This document shows, piece after piece, positions 32,401 through 64,000 of a stretch of 64,000 bases of DNA; the first letter of the stretch is position 1; each line of letters opens with the position of its first letter. The position numbers were made by a program, and so were the translations under genes. Source of the stretch: Sipunculus nudus (Eukaryota > Annelida > Sipuncula > Golfingiida > Sipunculidae); the NCBI GenBank assembly GCA_026874595.1, contig CM049309.1, forward strand, positions 90,852,723 through 90,916,722. Reading direction: 5' to 3'. The notes below the pieces were generated by a model that was not told the DNA's origin, made no database searches, and saw nothing but the letters and a program-made list of their open reading frames with translations.

Positions 32401-35400
32401 CGCTTTAACCATTGACTGTAGCTGTCAATCCTAATATTCTTGGTTAAAAGTGGGATCGTAGACAAGTTCCATAATAGTATTCGGAAGGTGATTAGGTTTT
32501 CATCCGATCCAAATGCATTGAAACGGCTGTTTCGCACATGATATGAGAACAGGTATATGTGAAAACTCCGCCTACGATTTATTCAGCCCACGCATTGACC
32601 TAGATTAAGAGTAAGTTATAGTAGCTGGAGCTGTCCTGTTTTCTTTCCAACCATGTGAAGAAAAGTGCCGAAAATTTACCCTTTTCCAAACAAGACTGAA
32701 AGATAGTTAAAACTTCCCGTTAACATGTAGGCCATGTTGAGCCACCAGTACTACCGAATAGCGCACTAAACCTAGTGTATATGTATGTGTTCAACGTTAT
32801 GGGGCATTTGTTCAGCCATTGGTGTGTAAAACTACTTTCGCAATAGCAATATATAGCTCAGGTAATCTGAAAGGTACAAAGAAGTATGGAAATTCCGAAT
32901 GACGGTATATTTCTTACTATGGATGATATATACATAGCATTTGTGAATATAGTGTATAAGCACATTAAATGGACTTACATTGTTGGGCAAAATGCTTTGT
33001 TAATAAAATTTCCTTTTCGTAAGTAGGAAACGCAACAAGTTCCCTCAAATGAATACTGGAACACATATCGGGTCGGTGATTCTGTGATTTGTTATAAATA
33101 GAAACATTTTTCTTTATGAACGAATTCTGTATAGGGTCTCTTCCTGTTACATGAAATTCCCTGACCCAGTTACAGTGTCATTGTTATACCTGAAACGTCC
33201 TCGTGACGCTCACAACAGGCTGATGATTCTGTTAGATTATTCAGGCAACAGAAGGTTGCTCTGCTTGCCGCTTGCTGCCAACGATACACGCATGACTTGT
33301 ACGGGTTCCTTAATGTATCTGAAAATGCCTGTAGACCAAATCATCACGACACACTCTGTAGGCGTTCAGTCAAGTGACATCTCTTTATCTGTCTGTTTAA
33401 AGGGATGCAGGGCTTCTCAATGACGTCAACTGCCTTCAAACAGACACGAGCATGTCAGATCGTAAGTCTTCATGAATGTAAGCCAGCTGTGCTGTTGACA
33501 TATCTGTGTTATAATTTTTGTGTTGGTGCACTTTAATAACCATAATCATAATAATCATACAAAGAAAGTTTGAACAATTATTATAATAAGGATACTTATG
33601 AAGATGAGGATGGATAATGATCCTAATCAAATCATGAAAACGAGAAACTAGCCGGAGCAGCTGGTTACATTATAAATAAATACAGCTGCAATGTTTTATT
33701 TATGATTCTTCCATGGACACTCCAAAATTATGTGATAAATTATAACACATATTTAAAGGGGCCTAATCACCTTTAAAGTATGTTGAATTAACACGTAAAA
33801 TAGCTTCTTCCCTTTAATATAAAATTGTTCCTGCCAAAATGTTGCCCTGTAAATGAGTGTTAAATACAGTTGACCGGGCGCGATTACAGGTGACAACATA
33901 AACACAGCGCATTGGACTTGGTGCATGAGTGAGCCATAACACCTGCCAATCATGATTTGCCCGACTGACTTGGCCCCAAAATTGTAATACATGTTCCTGC
34001 TGGCTGAAATATTGTGTGTTGTGGCTCACAATCGGACCTCTGGTCACGCGGCATTGTTATGGTATACAGAGACATGTTGACTGTGTTTACAAACAAGCAG
34101 AACACGAGCAAAGTGTTAAACAGCTGTATGCCAGGTACTGAGACCGTGTGCTGGGATGGTTCTGCTGGGAAACTTTTGTATAAAGCACAACTGAACCGAT
34201 AGTGTTAAAGAATAGGCATAATAATGCTCCTGATTATGTCCCTTTAAGGTTAAATCTTTCTCTGGAGAAAACTAGCTACCCAAATACTGTGTTGTTTAAA
34301 ATTTTGACACCAAAAGGTCATATGATTTATACGCATTGACAATGAAACAACAAAATTAATATCAATTCCTTCTAAATAAATCCCCCGGATATACCTACCG
34401 GTGACACGTACTCCTGCCTAAAAGGGCTCTCCAAAAGCAAAAGTATTTCTTGATTTTTGCTGAAGATTATAATTATATTGCTCATGAAAACCAACAATTT
34501 GTACCAACTGAGAAAAAACCATTATTTGATTTCTTTTTCAAAGAAATGTACTGTAATGGTGTTTTGATGTCAGCTTTATTTGAGTGGCCCAAAATAACAC
34601 AGACAAAACATCAATGTATGCTTTCTCTGATAAGGCTATGTAAATGGCTGCCTTGTTGCTGTTTATAGCTTGCGGTTCTGGTTTGTCAAGTGTGATTGAA
34701 TGAGGGCCGGCTCGCTATAAGAGTTCGATCAAAAGCACCGAGTACTCTACATACCATAAACTTCTACTTCTACGGCGTGTGCTTCAATTTCCCTCTCTCT
34801 AGGCTGCAATAAGCAAAACTTTATGTGAATATTTCCAGCTGTTAGGTTCTCCTAATACGCTGATCAATAATTTCCGGTGGGCAGTGAATATAGGGGATAC
34901 TGAAACGTTGCAAAGTACAATTTCTCTCTTCACTTTGTGCCTTTGATAAAACTTTGACTGCTGCATCTTTTCATCCGAAACTGTTCTCGGTTTGTTTATA
35001 AGTATTATGATTAGGATCTTGTTAGTTGGTTGATACGAGGGTTGGTCTGTGTGAGTGTTTTACTTAAATTTTTATTGACGTAGTTTAAGTAAACTTAAAA
35101 TCTCGTAATGTTGGACGATAAATGACATTATGTGAGATTTCACGAAAACACTAATAATTGTTTTACTCTTTTAAAAATGTCTGTCCTGTGTTACATTTGA
35201 TAAACTCTACCAAATATAGTGTCGTCCAATCTCGACTTATGTCAAGAAACAAGAATGCCATGGCTTCGTTAAAATCTGTCGGCTGGACAGAGCTGGCCAT
35301 GTGTCATGATTACATATCTTGTTATAGATAATTTCAATTACGTGCAGGTGTTAAGGCGCAACAATAAAGTTGACAACACGGGAAATTAAAAGAACACTTG

Positions 35401-35798: not shown

Positions 35799-36971
35799 AC
35801 TCTGTTACACATCTTAGGCTGTACTTGGTGTTGCTCTGTTACCCATAAAAGGCTGTACTTGGTGATGCTCTGTTACACATTATAGGCTGTACTTGATGAT
35901 GCTCTGTTAGACATTATAGGCTGTACTTGTTGATGCTCTGTTAGAAATTATAGGCTGTACTTGGTGATGCTCTGTTACACATTATAGGCTGTACTTTTTG
36001 ATGCTCTGTTAGACATTATAGGCTGTACTTGTTGATGCTCTGTTAAACATTATAAGCTGTACTTGGTGATGCTCTGTTACACATCATAGGCTGTACTTGG
36101 TGATGCTCTGTTACACATTATAGGCTGTACTTGGTGGTGCTCTGTTACACATCATAGGCTGTACTTGGTGATGCTCTGTTATACATCATAGTCTGTACTT
36201 GGTGATGCTTTGTTACACATTATAGGCTGTCCTTGATGATGCTCTGTTAAACATTATGAGCTGTACTTGGTGATTCTCTGAAGCACATTATAAGCTGTAC
36301 TTGGTGATTCACTGTTACACATCATAGGCTGTACTTGGTGATGCTCTGTTACACATCATAGGCTGTACTTGGTGATGCTCTGTTAGACATTATAGGCTGT
36401 ACTTGATGATGCTCTGTTAGACATTATAGGCTGTACTTGGTGATGCTCTGTTAGACATTATAGGCTGTACTTGGTGATGCTCTGTTACACATCATAGGCT
36501 GTACTTGGTGATGCTCTGTTACACATCATAGTCTGTACTTGGTGATGCTTTGTTACACATTATAGGCTGTCCTTGATGATGCTCTGTTTGACATTATAGG
36601 CTGTACTTGGTGATGCTTTGTTACACATTATAGGCTGTCCTTGATGATGCTCTGTTTGACATTATAGGCTGTACTTGGTGATGCTCTGTTACACATTATA
36701 GGCTGTACTTGGTGATGCTCTGTTACACATTATAGGCTGTACATGGTGGTGCTGTGTTAGACATTATAGGCTGTACTTGGTGATTCTATGTCACTCATTA
36801 TAGGCTGTACTTGGTGATGCTCTGTTTAACATTATAGGCTGTACTTGGTGATGCTCTGTTTAACATTATAGGCTGTACTTTTTGATGCTCTGTTAGACAT
36901 TATAGGCTGTACTTGTTGATGCTCTGTTAAACATTATAGACTGTACTAGGTGATGCTCTCTTACACATCAT
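35799..36971. repeat. 34-bp satellite array, about 34 copies
   Basis: The unit is close to GGCTGTACTTGGTGATGC followed by TCTGTTACACATTATA, 34 bp in all. It is repeated head to tail across about 1.17 kb. Variants alternate at fixed sites (ACACAT, AGACAT or AAACAT; TTGGTG, TTGATG or TTGTTG). Larger blocks recur, so higher-order duplication has occurred. No long frame is open. Confidence 0.96.
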
Positions 36972-45850: not shown

Positions 45851-46242
45851 CATTACAGAAAGTTCAAGTCAGCGGAGCGTCATGATCCATGAATCATTTG
45901 TTGAAATAAGTAGCATTTCATGAACATTCTGGGTGCTACCCAAACACCTTATGTGCCACAGGATTTGGCATAGATGATTAAAGTTAGTGATGGTATGACT
46001 GTACTATTTAAAGAAGATTTGGATTTCAATCTCTCAGCTGTCGTTATATCATCATTTCTTGTATTCATAGTAAAACAAAAATCAAATGTTATTAACGGAC
46101 GCTCGGTATGTAGTTTTTGTATTACTTTTTTACATTTGCAGTAATTAGCTCTTCTTTTGCTGTACTGCTATGCTTACGTTCAGGTAAACAGAATTCAAAC
46201 AATAGCTTACAGTTAGAAGGAAAATTATATTTCATTCTTATG
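45851..46242. other. Non-coding DNA
   Basis: Nothing recognisable. Confidence 0.4.
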
Positions 46243-46832
46243 ATGCAGGTGCCGGGATCGATATCAGCCAATGGAGAGTATATAGCAATGAAGGTGCCGG
46301 GATCGATATGAGCCAATGGAGAGTAAATAGCAATGCAGGTGCCGGGATCGATATCAGCCAATCGAGAGTTAATAGCAATGAAGGTGCCGGGATCGATATC
46401 AGCCAATCGAGACTTAATAGCAATGCAGGTGCCGGGATCGATATCAGCCAATGGAGAGTTTATAGCAATGCAGGTGCCGGGATCGATATCAGCTAATCGA
46501 GAGTTAATAGCAATGCAGGTGCCGGGATCGATATCAGCCAATCGAGAGTTAATAGAAATGCAGGTGCCGGGATCGATATCAGCCAATCGGGAGTTAATAG
46601 CAATGCAGGTGCCGGGATCGATATCAGCCAATCGAGAGTTTATAGCAATGCAGGTGCCGGGATCGATATCAGCCAATGGAGAGTTTATAGCAATGCAGGT
46701 GCCGGGATCGATATCAGCCAATGAAGAGTTAATAGCAATGCAGGTGCCGGGATCGATATCAGCCAATGGAGAATTAATAACAATGCAGGTGCCGGGATCA
46801 ATATCAGCCAATGGAGAGTTAATAGCAATGCA
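46243..46832. repeat. 45-bp minisatellite, 13 copies
   Basis: The 45-bp unit contains GGTGCCGGGATCGATATCAG followed by a CCAATGGAGAGTTTATAGCAATGCA-like part, with a few variable sites (GGAGAG or CGAGAG; TTTATA or TTAATA). Thirteen copies run without interruption. Because 45 is divisible by three and both strands lack stops, long frames appear on both strands (a 15-residue repeat with VPGSISAN on +, and with DIDPGTCIAINS on -). There is no start context, domain or non-repeat coding extension, so it is treated as non-coding. Confidence 0.93.
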
Positions 46833-47934
46833 TGCAAGTTATGTTATCATGACTAAGAAGTCACGGACCCACTGTTCAAAAGGAAAGTGGGAAAAAGAGT
46901 ACATGTGCATCTGGAGAGTAAAACCTGGAAATTAGGAAATTCCTTGCAAACATTGCAGACCCCTCTCAACCGGTGGACTATACCGCCTGAATCAGTAGGG
47001 TTTAAATGTATATAAGTATGACAGTGGTACTATCATCCCAAGGTACAGAAATTTATTGAAAATTTAGGCTGTAAACGTACAATCTAGGTGAGTTAAAAGA
47101 AGCACTTTGATTAGAACTCCGGTATATTTTTCGGTGTTATTCTGATTTTCAGTTTTGTTAGGTCGGTAAAGGGGTTGCAGGGGTCCGCCCCCCCCCCCCC
47201 CCTTCCCGGACCTTTGGACATTTTTATAGTTTTTGCCAAAGGTCCTCAGTTGGACCCGTCCTTTTCCTAAACATTGGATCTTCCTGACAATGTGCCTAGC
47301 CATCCTCCTGACAATGTGCGGTGGTATGACACCTCAACTGTCACCTATTGTCAGTACATCGACGTAAAATATTATATTATTTAAGAGATTATTTAAGAGA
47401 TATTTAAGAGATATTTAAGATATGAGATTGAAAATTCTAAGTAATATGTTTTGTAGTGACAAAATGATGAAGACTTATTTAAGGCAAGAGACCACTTTAC
47501 GTAAGGAAAAACATGTTTTTTTGGGACTCAAAAATGTAATTATGGTGGTAAAACCACTGAAAGTAAGGAATAATGTATTTTGTAGTGTCTTTAAATAATG
47601 TACTTAAATTGGAAAACACTAAAAGTAAAGAAACAGAGTTTAATTAATGAAATCTAGATGGGAGGCCTGCTTGGCGGACCCCGGTTTCCCCCTGATTATC
47701 GGCCGGATAATGTCTTTGTTGACATTGTGTCACATTCTCACATTTTATGATATATATCCGTGGCGTGGTAATGTAAATATAAACAGAAACTTATGTATGT
47801 GCTTACTTGGATAGCTTCCGTGATATACAACTGTCTCAAGAATTGTTGAAGATGGACATGTAAAGGCAAAGTAATAGTGCAGCTACACTTATTGTGATCA
47901 TATCAATTTTCTGCAAAAGGATTACCTGGATGAT
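46833..47934. other. Non-coding DNA
   Basis: A C-homopolymer (about 47188-47203), a short TATTTAAGAGA repeat (about 47380-47420) and loosely repeated AAGTAA(G/A)GAA words (47480-47640) are the only structure seen. Confidence 0.4.
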
Positions 47935-47950
47935 TGTAATAATTTTTTAT

Positions 47951-49010
47951 TACAATAGTGGTTGATGTTGAAGGCGGAAAATTTTCCTAGATTTGTCGAG
48001 ATTCTTCCAAACAAACGACATTTCCGAAAAAAAAACCCACACAATTCATGCTCTGTCTCCCCAAAAACGCATCAGTTTGTATTTCATATGTTATTACACT
48101 AGTGAACTTTATTACATTAGTGACCGTGTCGAGAAACCACTATTGTAATAACGGTCACTGTTGTAATAAAAACTAGCGGCCACCTTTATTTCACCACTGA
48201 ATAAATAATTCTATCGTCGTTCATCTTGAAATGCCACCATTGTTTTAAATTTGAGTTCAATTCTAAAATGCTGCAGAATTGTAGTATTCCAAACTTTATA
48301 ATCCACTCTTACATCATTAATTATAGCAATTACGAAATTTATTACAATAGTGAACGTTATTACAATAGTGACCGTGTCGAGCAACCACTATAGTAAAATA
48401 ACGGTCACTATTGTAATAAAAATTACCGCCACTTTTATCTCAAAACTGAAGAATATTTCCCTCGTAGTTCATCTTGAAATGCCACCATCTTTATATACTG
48501 TGTTCAAGTGTGATATGCTGGGGAATTAAAGTATTCCAAACGTTGTAATCCATCCTTACTTAATTAATTATACCTATAACGAAATTTATTACAATAGTGA
48601 ACGTTATTACAATAGTGACCGTGTCGAGCAACCACTATTGTAATAACGGTCACTATTGTAATAAAAAATAGCCACCACTGTTATCTCACCACTGAAGAAA
48701 TAATTTCCTTCATAGTATGTCTTGAAATGTCACCATCTTTTTCTATTTTTGTTCAAGTGTGATATGCTGGGGAATTATAGTATTCTAAACATTGTAATAC
48801 ATTCTTACTTAATTAATTATACCTATAACGAAATTTATTACAATAGTGAACGTTATTACAATAGTGACCGTGTCGTGCAACCAATATTGTAATAACGGTC
48901 ACTATTGTAATAGAAAATAGCCGCCACGTTTTTCTCACCACTGAAGAAATAATTTTTCCTTATCTTATATCTTGCAATTCCACTTATATTTCATATTTGG
49001 TCAAAATATT
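47951..49010 (+). repeat. Left arm of the foldback-like structure
   Basis: An outer block (GAAGGCGGAAAATTTTCC, AACAAACGACATTTCCG and GCATCAGTTTGTATTTCATA) is followed by four 247-249 bp units. Each has ATTACAATAGTGAACG, GACCGTGTCGAG, CACTATTGTAATAA and a GAAATG(C/T)CACCAT block. Outer units differ more than the two inner ones, which resemble each other. Confidence 0.85.
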
Positions 49011-49157
49011 TCTTGCACCATGGACTCCATACATTATTACTCGATATGTAAAAACTCATCTCTACCCTTTTCCTCTCACAACGTGATGAAGATTCCTGTG
49101 CGCCTTGAAAGCTCGGATTAAAAAATTAGTTAGTCTATAGAATTTATTTATTTTCTC

Positions 49158-49246
<89 letters not shown>
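49158..49246. repeat. (TA)n/(GA)n microsatellite
   Basis: About 40 bp of TA followed directly by about 46 bp of GA, inside the centre of the foldback-like structure. It accounts for the Ser-Leu/Tyr-Ile frame on the minus strand. Confidence 0.95.
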
Positions 49247-49248
<2 letters not shown>

Positions 49249-49362
49249 GGCATTGCTCCACTCATAAAATTTGCCGCAACTGCATGAATACCTTAGTCAC
49301 CAATATTATGACGTCATGTCACGGGTCGCTTGGTACAAAATGGGAAAATTACACTCATTCTT

Positions 49363-50110
49363 AAATATCTCAAGACATCTTGCATGGATTGCTCCAAAAA
49401 TCAAGTTGACCGAAGATCTTGGATAGTGTGGTCATATACCGGAAACTTGTGGCGCCACCTATTATCCTTTTCTTGTTTTCGTGCCGTATAATATCCCTAT
49501 CAGTGCCACTTGACAGTACTGTAAGGATTATAAGTCAAAAACAAATAGACAGATTTCTATGATATTATACATTTACATAGATATGGGTTATGGGATGATG
49601 TATATTTAAAATGGGATCATGACCTTTCCTATGAGAGTGGCTTTGACCTTGAGTATTGCCATATATGGCGACAATCACATAAAATCATAAATATCTCGAT
49701 ACGTGATGTATGGAATGGTCCAAAAATCAAGCTGACCGAAGATTCTGGATAGTTTTGTCTTCTGCGGAAGATTATTGGCACCATCTTCTGTCCATTTGTT
49801 GTTTTCGTGCCGTTGATATCCCATCAATGCCACTTTGCAGTACTGTAAGCATTAAAAGTATAAAAACTAATGGCCGGATTGGAATGAAATTGTTCATGTT
49901 CATTGACCTGAATATCTTATATTCAAGACTGGTGGCGCCATCTGCAATTGTTTTCGTGTGGCGTCCATCCATACATATGTTTTAGGTATAAATTGTTCAT
50001 ATCCTAGGAGTGGTTCAATGTGTTTTGCTGCAATTTGGCATATAAATATATTTTTGAGAGTTTTCTCATCAACAAGACAGGTGACGCCATCTACCGTGCC
50101 CTTTTAAAGG
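49363..50110. repeat. Direct repeat family with GGTGGCGCCA(C/T)C core
   Basis: Two segments about 325 bp apart share CCAAAAATCAAG(T/C)TGACC, GTTTTCGTGCCGT, ATCCC(T/A)ATCA, TGCCACTT and CAGTACTGTAAG. GGCGCCACC-type cores occur near 49452, 49932 and 50090. The core is shared with the 5.8-6.1 kb array. Confidence 0.7.
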
Positions 50111-51041
50111 TATAAATTAATTAAACAAAAACGTAATTAAACATATAACACAATAATGGTCATAGCGAATCCCGTACACAGTACACTGTAAAAAATGGAG
50201 ACACGTCTAATGTTTTGTACAATACACCGGTGTTATATTTGAATAGCCACATGTTTAAATTGTCTGTGTTTATGCAGAAAACACTGGTGTCTACAGATAG
50301 ACACAAGACGTGCTTTTACCAACATGTTTAAAGGCCCCTTTAAAGTGGTATAATTCTGTCAAAATAAATCTCAATACATTGTAATAGTTTCAAATTTGTG
50401 TGAATGAACTTTAAACAAATATTTAATGTACATAAACGTATTTCAAGCATTATTATCAGGGGTCAGTACTTAGTTTGACCATATATATTTGCTGTTAAAT
50501 AATTTATCGGGGATTCGAGGTATAATAGGTTAATAATGCCCTTCCGTTTATTCATTAATTCACCAGCCCTTATAACATGAGCAGTAAAAACACCCGGGTG
50601 TTTATAAGCGGCTCGATATAAACACCTGGAAACCAAAGTGTTTTCATGATTGACAATGGTCCAGTGCTTTATGAGATCACGTAATACTGTGAGCCAAGCT
50701 GCTGATAAATGCGCGGTTGACTTTAAATGACCAACATATGTTGCTCCAAACTAGTATGTATATAGACATCCAAACATCCAGTGCACTCGAGTTGTATCCG
50801 ATGTCATTTAGAATGTCACCATGTAAACACAGATACGTCTTTATTTATCCTAACAATTATTATATGATCATATTTATATTATATTCATATTGCAAGAAAT
50901 TACTTTAATTTGTTACTTTCTCACTCCCGTATGACAGACATTGTAAAAATGTAAATGTGAAAATTGCCGCCAGGTTGGTTTCAACCTTGTTTTGTTTAAC
51001 TGCGTTTGTGGTATGTGTTGGTATATATATCTATATCATGG

Positions 51042-51157
51042 TACAAATGGCAATCTGGTACGCTTGGCAATTGTACCAGTACAGATCGCAATTAGGGACT
51101 TTTACTGGTACAAATCCCAATCGCAATCTGTACTATCATATCAGATTGCCATTTGTA
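51042..51157. repeat. Inverted repeat with 16-bp perfect arms
   Basis: TACAAATGGCAATCTG at 51042-51057 is exactly reversed as CAGATTGCCATTTGTA at 51142-51157. The loop holds more GGTACAAAT, GCAATT and GATCGCAAT words in both orientations, so the stretch could fold into a branched hairpin. Confidence 0.8.
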
Positions 51158-51164
51158 GCATAAC

Positions 51165-51166
<2 letters not shown>

Positions 51167-51201
<35 letters not shown>

Positions 51202-51207
51202 TATATT
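51167..51207. repeat. (TA)n microsatellite
   Basis: TA tract with one GTATA interruption, just inside the right arm of the foldback-like structure. Confidence 0.9.
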
Positions 51208-52468
51208 AAGAAAAATTATTTCTTCAGTGGTGACATAAAACAGGCGGCTATTTTTTATTACAATAATGACCGTTATTACAATAGTTGTTGCTCGACACGG
51301 TCACTATTGTAAAAACATTCACTATTGTAATAAATTTCGTTATAGGTATAATTAATGACGTGAGAGTGGATAATAACGTTAGGAATACTATAATTCCCAA
51401 GAATTTTACACTTAAACAGACATATAAAACGATGGTGGCATTTCAAGATAAACGGTGAGGGAAATTATTTCTTCAGTATTGAGAAAGAAGTGGCGGCTAT
51501 TTTTAATTTCATAAGTGACCGTTATTACAATAGTGGTTGCTCGACACGGTCACTATTGTAATAACGTTCACTATTGTAATAAATTTCGTATAAGGTATAA
51601 TTAATTAAGTAAAATTTATTTCAACATTTGGAATACTATAATTCCCCAGCAATTTACGCTTGAACACAAATATAAAAAAAGATGGTGGCATTTCAAGATG
51701 AACTACGAGGGAAATTATTTCTTCAGTGGAAAGATAAAAGTGGCGGCTATTTTTTTATTACAATAGTGACCGTTATTACAATAGTGGTTTCTCGACACGG
51801 TCACTATTGTAATAACGTTCACTATTGTAATAAATTTCGTTATAGTATAATTAATTAAGTACGGATGGATTACAACGTTTGGCATACTAAAATTCCCCAG
51901 CATTTTACACTTGAACACATATATAAAAAAGATGGCGGCATTTCAAGATGAAATATGAGGGAAATTATTTCTTCAGTGGTCAGATAGAAGTGGCGGCTAT
52001 TTTTTATAACATTAGTGACCGTTATTACAATAGTGGTTGCTCGACACGGTCACTATTGTAATAACGTTCACTATTGTAATAAATTTCGTAATTGCTATAA
52101 TTAATGATGTAAGAGTGGATTATAAAGTTTGGAATACTACAATTCTGCAGCATTTTAGAATTGAAATCAAATTTAAAACAATGGTGGCATTTCAAGATGA
52201 ACGACGATAGAATTATTTCTTCAGTGGTGAAATAAAGGTGGCCGCTAGTTTTTATTACAATAGTGACCGTCATTATACAATAGTGGTTTCTCGACACGGT
52301 CACTAATGTAATAAAGTTCACTAGTGTAATAACATATAAAATACAAACTGATGCGTTTTTGGGGAGACAGAGTATGAATTGTGTGTTTTTTTTCGGAAAT
52401 GTCGTTTGTTTGGAAGAATCTCGACAAATCTAGGAAAATTTTCCGCCTTCAACATTAACCACTATTGT
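51190..52468 (-). repeat. Right arm of the foldback-like structure
   Basis: Five about 250-bp units in reverse orientation to the left arm, each with GTGGCGGCTATTTTT, ACCGTTATTACAATAGTGG, CTCGACACGGTCACTATTG and AATAAATTTCGT blocks. The outer block then follows (GCATC... on the left reads GATGCGTTTTTGGGGAG here) down to CCGCCTTCAACATTA. The last unit matches the outermost left unit best. Confidence 0.85.
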
Positions 52469-52640
52469 AATAAAAATTATTACAATAGTGGTTGCATTTG
52501 CAACCAATATTGTAATAATTATAACAATAGTGACCGTTATTACAATAGTGGTTGGCAAAAACTTGCCCTTCCCAACCGCTATTGTAATAATTATTACAAT
52601 AGTGAACGTTATTACAATAGTGGTTGCAACAGTGCTTAAA
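52469..52640. repeat. Outer cluster of ATTACAATAGTGG boxes
   Basis: Alternating CACTATTGTAATAA and TTATTACAATAGTG boxes separated by short GC-containing linkers (GCATTTGCAACC, GGCAAAAACTTGCC) form a series of nested hairpins. The left end has only one or two such boxes (47938-47962), so the two ends are unequal. Confidence 0.8.
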
Positions 52641-61489: not shown

Positions 61490-62386
61490 ATATGCCTGGG
61501 GGTCGATGATGTGAATAAACTTTCAAGGCATGTAGGCGGAATATGAAAATAAAATATCGAGGCCAGCGGGCCGATAATGTGAACAAAATATCGAGGCCAG
61601 TGGGCCGATAATGTGAACAAATATCGTGGCCGGTAGGCCGATAATGTGGACAAAATATCGAGGCTTGTGGGCCGATAATGTAAACAAAATATCCAGGCCA
61701 GCGGGCCGATAATGTGAACAAAATATCGAGGCCAGTGGGCCGATAATGTGCACAAAATATCGAGGCCAGTCGACCGATAATGTAAACAGATATCGAGGCC
61801 AGTAGGCCAATAATGTAAACAAAATATCGTGGCCTGTGAGCCGAAAATGTGAACAAAATATTTAAGGTTGTCGGTCAATAATGTGAACAAAATATCTAGG
61901 CCAGCGGGCCTATAATGTGAACAAAATATTGAGGCCAGTGGGCCAACGATGTGCACAAAATATCGAGGCCTGTTGGCCGATAATGTGAATAAATATCGAG
62001 GCCAGTTGGCCAATAATGTGGACAAAATATCGAGGCTTGTGGGCCGATAATATAAACAAAATACCGGGCCTGTGGGCCGATAATGTAAACAATATATAGA
62101 GGGCTTAGGGTCGATAATGTAAACAAAATATCTAGGCCAGCGGGCCGATAATGTGAACAAAATATCGAGGCCTGTGGGCTGATAATGTGAACAAAATATT
62201 GAGGGCTGTGGGTCGACAATGTGAACAAAATATTGAGGCCTGTGGGCCGCTTATGTAAACAAAATATCGAGGCCTGTAGGTTGATAATGTGAACATAATA
62301 TCAAGGCCTGTGGGCCGATAATGTGAACAAAATATCGAGGCTTGTGAGCCGATAATGTGAACAGAATATCGATTGGCCGATGGTGT
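61490..62386. repeat. 34-bp satellite array, about 26 copies
   Basis: Unit close to GGCCGATAATGTGAACAAAA followed by TATCGAGGCCTGTG, 34 bp. Copies vary at GCCAGTGG, GCCTGTGG and GCTTGTGG, and some units lose one or two bases. Because 34 is not a multiple of three, the minus-strand frames cycle through three readings, giving long Tyr/Ile/Pro-rich frames without other gene evidence. Unrelated in sequence to the 34-bp array at 35.8-37.0 kb. Confidence 0.95.
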
Positions 62387-63419
62387 TGAATTTTAGGCCG
62401 CTTTCACTAAAAATTCCAGGGCTTATTTCTCATCCAAGTCCGTCCCTGCAGCCATTGCTTAGGAGAAGTAGAGATCTGATTAATTTATGTTTTAAATTGT
62501 GTTACATTAAATAAGAAATAAAACAATAGGTGAACATAAACATGTCTAAACCAGGCCTTCAGAACAACATGCTAGAGCTTGTGGTCTTGTTTTGCGAAGC
62601 ATAATGAAGAGTGGAGTCAAAATGTTGTTTCAAAATATCCCCCAAAAAACTAACACATTAATGAAAATCTTGGTTTCCTGTGTAACCAGATGCCAAAAGT
62701 GAAAAGGTATGGGATGTTTGTTCAAGCTGATGGGAAGCAGAAAGCAGTCTAAAAAATTCAGTCAATAACATAGCAAGGGTAAGCACAAAGTAATGCTACT
62801 ATACAAGCTGAACACGTCAATCAAATTTGACAATATTTCCCCGCCGTACTGTAACAGACCACTTGCTTGTGAGTTCTGTTACTTTTTTTTATTATATGAT
62901 GAAATATAAATAAAAAATAGTCCAAAATATAAGCAGGGATTATATTTGGTCTATCGCCATAATGTGAATGATTTTTTGTATTCACTGTCTATGTAAATAT
63001 TTGAACAGCATTGTGGCATTTATTTGAACGATAAGCTGCAATTCGTTTGACATGGTGCATCTTATATTGCAAACAGTACATGACAGGTTTGACAATGGAC
63101 ATTTGACGATAAGAAATAAAAAAAGGAGGTTATAATAGCTGGCATCTTCATTTGTGATAACCCTTATTGTGCCCAGGTCATGGGTTACGACAAGGAACGT
63201 GTTTTTTACTGTATACACATATTGCATTCTGGATTAATTGTGAGAGAATCCCCAAGCTCCGTGGCTATCTATGTTTTCATAGCTAGTTTATTCAAACCAA
63301 ACCTACCTTTTGTCTCTGCAGTATAGGGATGATCTCAAACATTCTTTCCTTTATAAATGTATAATACGTTAAAGTAAAGAGGATTTTCTGCATTACATCA
63401 CAAATGAAAGCGTGTGTTA
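62387..63419. other. Non-coding DNA
   Basis: Nothing recognisable. Confidence 0.4.
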
Positions 63420-63635
63420 CGACCCATAATGTAATAACTGGCCCATAATGTAATAACGGCCCATATTGTAATAAAAACGACCCATAATGTAATAATAGCC
63501 CATAATGTAATAAAAAAGGGCCCATATTGTAATAAATATACCCTGCCCATATTGTAATAAAATCGCAAGTGGGTAAAACGGCCCATATTGTTATAAAATC
63601 GAAGGTGGATAAAACGGCCAATAATTTTATAAATC
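63420..63635. repeat. Short-period GCCCATA(A/T)TGTAATAA array
   Basis: Eight or nine copies of a GCCCATAATGTAATAA-like core spaced 18-35 bp apart. The ATTGTAATAA part is identical to the hairpin arm word of the 47.9-52.6 kb structure, though the surroundings differ. Minus-strand frames here are by-products. Confidence 0.88.
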
Positions 63636-63849
63636 AAAGTTCATGCAAATTAACTTAGACAATTCAAATATTGACTTCTCGTGACACGAATGTGTAAGTA
63701 AACATGCAAGTATGAAAAACCACTGGATTACATAATGACTATTTGCTTAAAACGGTGACCAAGCTAATATGAACGAAATATGGCCATGATTCATGATTAT
63801 CCTTTTGTTGAACCAGTTTTTAAATAGGATGATAAAGTATTTAAACAAG

Positions 63850-63887
<38 letters not shown>

Positions 63888-63897
63888 TATATGTATA
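63850..63897. repeat. (TA)n microsatellite
   Basis: TA tract with two ACATA/GTATA interruptions near its right end. Confidence 0.92.
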
Positions 63898-64000
63898 TCG
63901 CCAAAATGTAAATATTTTGTCAATTTTAACAGATAAATTATACAAAACTCTCATTATCGATACATTTTAATGTATTTTAATTCTTTTTAAAATATAAATG

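Follow-up and report, generated by a model that had tools for sequence, protein, structure and literature searches.

A foldback element family of Sipunculus nudus, very probably a non-autonomous DNA transposon with GC-centred, mostly 6-bp target duplications

A 64,000-nucleotide stretch of Sipunculus nudus contig CM049309.1 (the window; positions 90,852,723 to 90,916,722) carries at 47933-52631 a damaged copy of a dispersed repeat family. We read this family, with a probability of roughly 0.9, as a non-autonomous DNA transposon of foldback anatomy, characterized by discrete termini, GC-centred and mostly 6-bp target duplications, and dispersed copies that apparently lack genes of their own. 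An initial annotation of the window had proposed a foldback transposon at this position, and the proposal is borne out: the tandem unit and outer block recur at numerous loci scattered through the genome, in copies that keep one anatomy, end discretely and carry target duplications. These properties mark the family as a transposon rather than simply an inverted satellite; the unit proved neither confined to a single locus nor arranged as a satellite lacking ends or duplications.

Alignment of outer edges showed that the element extends 145 bp past its outer block, to 5'-TGTTGCAACC. The inverted termini of the family are discrete (TGTTGCAACC...GGTTGCAACA), and the true family terminus reads 5'-TGTTGCAACCACTATTGTAATAACG. 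A pattern search of the 1.43-Gb assembly with the terminal 25-mer, allowing up to 2 mismatches, returned 286 places, and the reversed control none. A 455-bp query from the left arm gave at least 493 matches on at least 13 contigs, a lower bound for which 40 of 434 candidates were scored. Twenty stretches were fetched from the genome for mapping of parts, and the same plan is repeated across copies: outer block, arm of 248-bp units, conserved interior, opposite arm and outer block. The terminal motif had no matches in viral contigs. On C5 (72993153-73017315; L006, L010, L009 and L004), four unit matches lie in the same orientation at a spacing of ~7.8-8.1 kb, which may reflect tandem amplification of entire elements.

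Every element with both termini in hand entered the test for target duplications (n = 28); the counts leave out those with one terminus lost or unfetched, namely the window copy, L018, L022, L023 and L025-L027. Among the first 17 elements, 13 were flanked by an exact 6-mer, 2 by a match at five of six bases and 2 by 5 bp only, and duplication lengths of 3, 4 and 7-12 bp each scored 0/17. With 11 pairs added, the exact 6-bp duplication was present in 20 of 28, five of six bases agreed in 5 and a common 5-mer was found in 3, while mispaired ends, serving as a control, agreed in 3 of 756 cases. The exact duplications follow the pattern NNGCNN in 14 of 20 cases, compared with a GC dinucleotide frequency of 3.5% in the window (p ~1e-16 against that rate). 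Empty and filled sites, whose comparison the initial annotation had suggested, could be set side by side for two insertions, the empty sites lying in neighbouring units of local tandem repeats; the match is close for a copy on C8, whereas the unit neighbouring L017 differs inside the target itself.

The anatomy of the window copy is that of two arrays facing each other across an interior. Tandem Repeats Finder delimits them at 48091-48955 (period 249, 3.5 copies) and 51213-52332 (period 250, 4.5 copies), and they pair as inverted repeats, for example 48146-48396 with 52025-52275 at 98% complementarity. The 14-mer TTATTACAATAGTG, with up to 2 mismatches, matches the window 45 times versus 1.7 expected, a number reached in 0 of 100 shuffles; 42 of the 45 matches fall within the foldback element and 3 in a relative at 63.4 kb that is described below. 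DNA folding of a 123-bp stretch containing one unit's hairpin gave -30.1 kcal/mol (z -9.9). The facing, hairpin-bearing tandem arms claimed from first inspection are thus recovered, as is an outer 91-bp block mirrored on both sides (47944-48034 versus 52386-52476, 99% complementary). The annotated ends fared unequally, since the right edge missed the true terminus (52631) by no more than 10 bp, but the left edge, at 47933, is a truncation and not a terminus, because the 145-bp terminal module kept on the right is absent on the left, where unrelated sequence begins. Five other copies (L013, L015, L016, L017 and L020) have ~2 kb between the window-matching interior and the opposite arm that the window copy does not, and comparison with L016 places this gap of ~1,990 bp at a (TA)n tract. 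The window copy is therefore damaged, having lost its left terminal module and ~2 kb of interior, and with its left terminus gone it can no longer move normally. Its parts are as follows.

47933-48090, forward strand: left outer block, comprising an end remnant and the 91-bp unique block; the outer edge is the truncation
48091-48955, forward strand: left arm of ~249-bp tandem units; 14-mers of TTATTACAATAGTG type form a hairpin in every unit
48956-49150, forward strand: conserved interior adjoining the left arm, with 79-96% identity in those copies that showed it
49158-49249, no strand: (TA)n(GA)n microsatellite within the element
49250-51150, forward strand: conserved interior (mid1, mid2) with no long reading frame
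51165-51206, no strand: (TA)n tract, site of the ~2.0 kb found in copy L016 and absent from the window copy
51213-52332, reverse strand: right arm of ~250-bp tandem units in inverted orientation
52333-52486, reverse strand: right outer block, mirroring 47933-48090
52487-52631, reverse strand: terminal module of the right side, whose last bases, ...GGTTGCAACA, are the true terminus
52632-52637, no strand: GTGCTT, presumed remaining half of a 6-bp target duplication of NNGCNN type, the left half being lost

Coding capacity was surveyed in 40 family stretches, a scan in which not every copy was read through. Frames of at least 200 amino acids occurred in two of them (L023 and L018); the other 38 reach 175 amino acids at most, which is also the longest frame inside family sequence, and none of eight interior frames matched Pfam. 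The 951-residue frame of L023 carries SCAN, CCHC, H2C2, rve and SH3 domains and is of Gypsy type by domain; it lies at L023:6249-9636 (C2:28.49 Mb), between the ends of a 12-kb family copy, and is followed downstream by a same-strand RNase H frame. As far as tested, we rejected this integrase frame as the family's own enzyme because of its SCAN and CCHC domains, the adjoining RNase H frame and its position beyond the last family match (4746). The two frames of L018 (246 and 228 amino acids) are of long interspersed nuclear element type (RVT_1, zf-RVT) and lie past the interior. The initial annotation had seen no transposase, and indeed the stretches read contained none of the family's own between the arms; the longer, transposase-bearing copy that it had proposed to seek did not appear among three long copies considered as autonomous candidates, two of them read in pieces. 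The 17.3-kb copy has expanded arms instead, and the pieces read of the 17.1- and 13.3-kb copies are family sequence with foreign stretches. As a separate observation, another dispersed repeat, at window positions 33758-34248, matches at 75% a stretch of 512 bp inside the 13.3-kb copy on C11 (L053).

Candidate enzymes were also sought in the genome at large. Matches to rva_4 (PF24764) number 40, several of equal score with a 232-residue frame, and these frames possibly represent a recently active DNA transposon; we take rva_4 to be a putative transposase of the IS3EU/GingerRoot type. The IS481 model matched 65 places, of which 33 lie in frames of at least 1,000 amino acids, presumably Gypsy-type retroelements.

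Several observations weigh against the reading of the family as a non-autonomous transposon. The search revealed neither an autonomous copy nor a transposase tied to these ends, with 0 of 40 rva_4 places and 0 of 65 IS481-model places falling within 20 kb of the 121 listed among the 286 termini. Long frames do exist in 2 of the 40 stretches (L023 and L018), outside the family-matching parts, in elements read short of their far ends. Three of the 28 pairs carry 5-bp rather than 6-bp repeats (the third read by eye), the short copies could in part be deletions that followed insertion, and the function of the arrays as extra binding sites is putative. We conclude that the family is non-autonomous; because neither an autonomous copy nor a transposase linked to its ends was found, it is presumably moved in trans.

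Copies with both ends form a size series that includes 171, 702, 1182, 3712 and 4479 bp and has its maximum at 17,308 bp, with exact duplications at the 1182- and 702-bp copies and a match at five of six bases for the 171-bp copy. The two arms of the 17.3-kb copy hold 40 and 3 aligned units (43 and 5 by a looser count of cores). Of 142 units, 72 are most similar to a unit of another element, 64 to one within their own arm and 6 to one in the arm opposite; in the rows inspected for L016, L020 and the window copy, best matches fall at corresponding places of other elements. For the two arms with the greatest expansion, 49 best matches stay within the arm; 33 of them are a multiple of four units away and 16 are not, a spacing that fits unequal exchange of four-unit blocks (~992 bp). 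Arms thus sometimes expand in four-unit blocks, which supports the earlier suggestion that arm length changes by recombination. Conversion within elements, considered as a means of keeping the arms alike, is unsupported for the outer block (mean identity 0.895 in 14 within-element pairs versus 0.885 in 727 between-element pairs) and equally for the units, the opposite arm being the best match of just 6 of 142. The series, from short deleted copies to an arm of ~40 units grown mainly by four-unit steps, captures a transposon arm becoming a satellite array.

A second, related and more numerous family has its left end within the window. Its terminus TGTTACGACCCATAATGTAATAAC starts at 63415, and the element continues beyond the window from 63415-64000. 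With up to 3 mismatches, TGTTACGACCCATAATGTAATAAC was found at 873 places in the genome and a control at 2. The five copies read, each 1.6 or 3.0 kb in length, have no frame above 144 amino acids and are all flanked by 5-bp duplications (GCGTC, GAGGT, AGGTT, CCTCT and GCATT, read by eye), and the family has subterminal runs of an 18-mer. Both families have a TGTNR-type end and the core TGTAATAA, which suggests that they are served by related enzymes. A 77-bp stretch of 92% identity is also common to their interiors (L033, L016).

The first family was set against published systems by their descriptions in the papers cited here. Structurally it belongs with foldback elements: long inverted arms built of tandem repeats flank a middle domain, the ends are discrete and the target is duplicated. 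The foldback elements compared here have duplications of 7-10 bp, and most of the class are thought to be Mutator. Tetris of Drosophila virilis (PMC4079207) is similar in its inverted arms with a flanking domain and a variable number of ~220-bp tandem units, its middle lacking apparent coding capacity, its lack of a known autonomous partner and its units that also form satellite-like arrays. It differs in its duplications of 8-10 bp, described from three structurally complete copies, whereas here they are GC-centred and 6 bp long, in full or at five of six bases in 25 of 28 pairs. Galileo, a Drosophila element of the P superfamily likened here by description only, has internally repetitive inverted repeats of variable length whose tandem repeats were proposed as secondary transposase sites, but makes 7-bp duplications (0/17 here) and has transposase-coding copies (PMC3573991). 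Foldback anatomy with tandem-unit arms is thus a known kind, and of the initial claim of an undescribed family only the family itself stands, as far as the literature was searched; the difference lies in GC-centred, 6-bp insertion. No paper in the literature searched contained the motif strings, none on bivalve or mollusc foldback elements described a matching structure in its title or abstract opening, and the word "foldback" does not occur in the available text of a bivalve transposon paper (PMC10294476). A new family of foldback type, set apart from known systems by their descriptions, is therefore supported as far as the literature searched shows, repeat databases being outside the comparison. 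The 28 readable insertions, with GC-centred targets and 6-bp duplications, suggest that foldback anatomy has emerged in a lineage of different insertion chemistry.

As to which enzyme moves the family, we favour the view that TGT..ACA ends with 5-6 bp duplications best fit the integrase-like group, while the target fits part of Dada. That the mobilizing enzyme belongs to the integrase-like DDE transposases of GingerRoot, IS3EU and Ginger2, and is in some form common to the 5-bp family at 63.4 kb, seems to us a tentative possibility that falls somewhat short of an even chance. The 40 rva_4 matches, several equal in score and frame length, speak for it, yet none lies near the listed termini, as given above, and the link of rva_4 to IS3EU or GingerRoot is presumed. 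The TGTNR ends that have been reported for Ginger and for Gypsy recur in both families, and duplications of 6 bp are described for GingerRoot and IS3EU and of 4-5 bp for Ginger2 (PMC10045372; PMC2836005). Complete IS3EU families, however, have TA..TA ends, as has GingerRoot with occasional TG..CA, so that the ends seen here are the minority form. The TGTNR ends of Ginger2 fit our family, but its duplication length and AT-rich RTATAY targets do not, nor do the CCGG/CCGT targets of Ginger1 resemble NNGCNN; Ginger inverted repeats measure 40-270 bp, and no such gene was found in the family elements. For Polinton/Maverick elements the 6-bp duplication fits; they also carry DNA polymerase B and integrase genes, and the family sequence scanned here has no long frame.

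A Dada-type transposase appears distinctly unlikely. Dada occurs in oyster and makes 6-7 bp duplications, several with GC at positions 3-4 (TAGCTC, TGGCGC, ATGCTA) as in NNGCNN, but other published duplications depart from that pattern (GCGCAA, GCGAAT, TAGTCT, GCGTTCA). As described, it has no terminal inverted repeats, and those copies whose termini can be defined are inserted in small RNA genes (PMC3706591; PMC8869645), whereas the termini here are long and inverted. Searches of insertion sites for such genes, which could miss one split by the insertion, gave a single weak tRNA match among 20 loci with Rfam, lying outside the L019 element at a distance of 157 bp, and nothing with ARAGORN at 27 loci. 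Still less probable is a Mutator-type foldback element of the Tm1/Tetris lineage, despite the composite inverted repeats with internal tandem units and the non-coding middle of Tetris. Tm1 of root-knot nematodes (PMC3169594) likewise has composite inverted repeats with a varying number of ~14-bp motifs and members resembling miniature inverted-repeat transposable elements, but its duplications are mostly 9 bp, it shows no target preference in the description available, and some members have a putative transposase; the family here has a clear preference and 6-bp rather than 8-10 bp duplications (13/17 at 6, 0/17 at 7-12). An inverted satellite, or an array carried by a Helentron as described from oysters, would account for the arm of ~40 head-to-tail units, but we rejected both on the paired termini with duplications, which together with the empty sites leave them a nearly negligible chance; Helitrons, as described, make no target duplications.

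For the non-autonomous transposon that we favour, a DDE-type transposase encoded elsewhere in the genome would supply movement, binding the 14-mer CACTATTGTAATAA, which occurs immediately inside each end and again throughout the terminal module and units. Cleavage would occur at TG/CA, with joining across a 6-bp stagger. The arrays would provide extra binding sites, may thereby raise competitiveness, and would lengthen through unequal exchange. We also raise a bolder conjecture, rather unlikely in our estimation, that an undescribed transposase lineage moves both this family and its 63.4-kb relative. Such an enzyme would recognize runs of the TGTAATAA core, cut at TGT...ACA and join with a 5- or 6-bp stagger, GC-centred in the 6-bp family, and the tandem arms, as arrays of binding sites, would enable copies without genes to outcompete the helper and then to grow into satellite.

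The window contains further repeats. At 46122-46935 stand 13 copies of a 45-bp repeat (46243-46832), open on both strands with frames of 200 and 229 amino acids. Arrays with a 34-bp period occupy 35800-36968 and 61494-62372, with 34 and 26 copies of different units.

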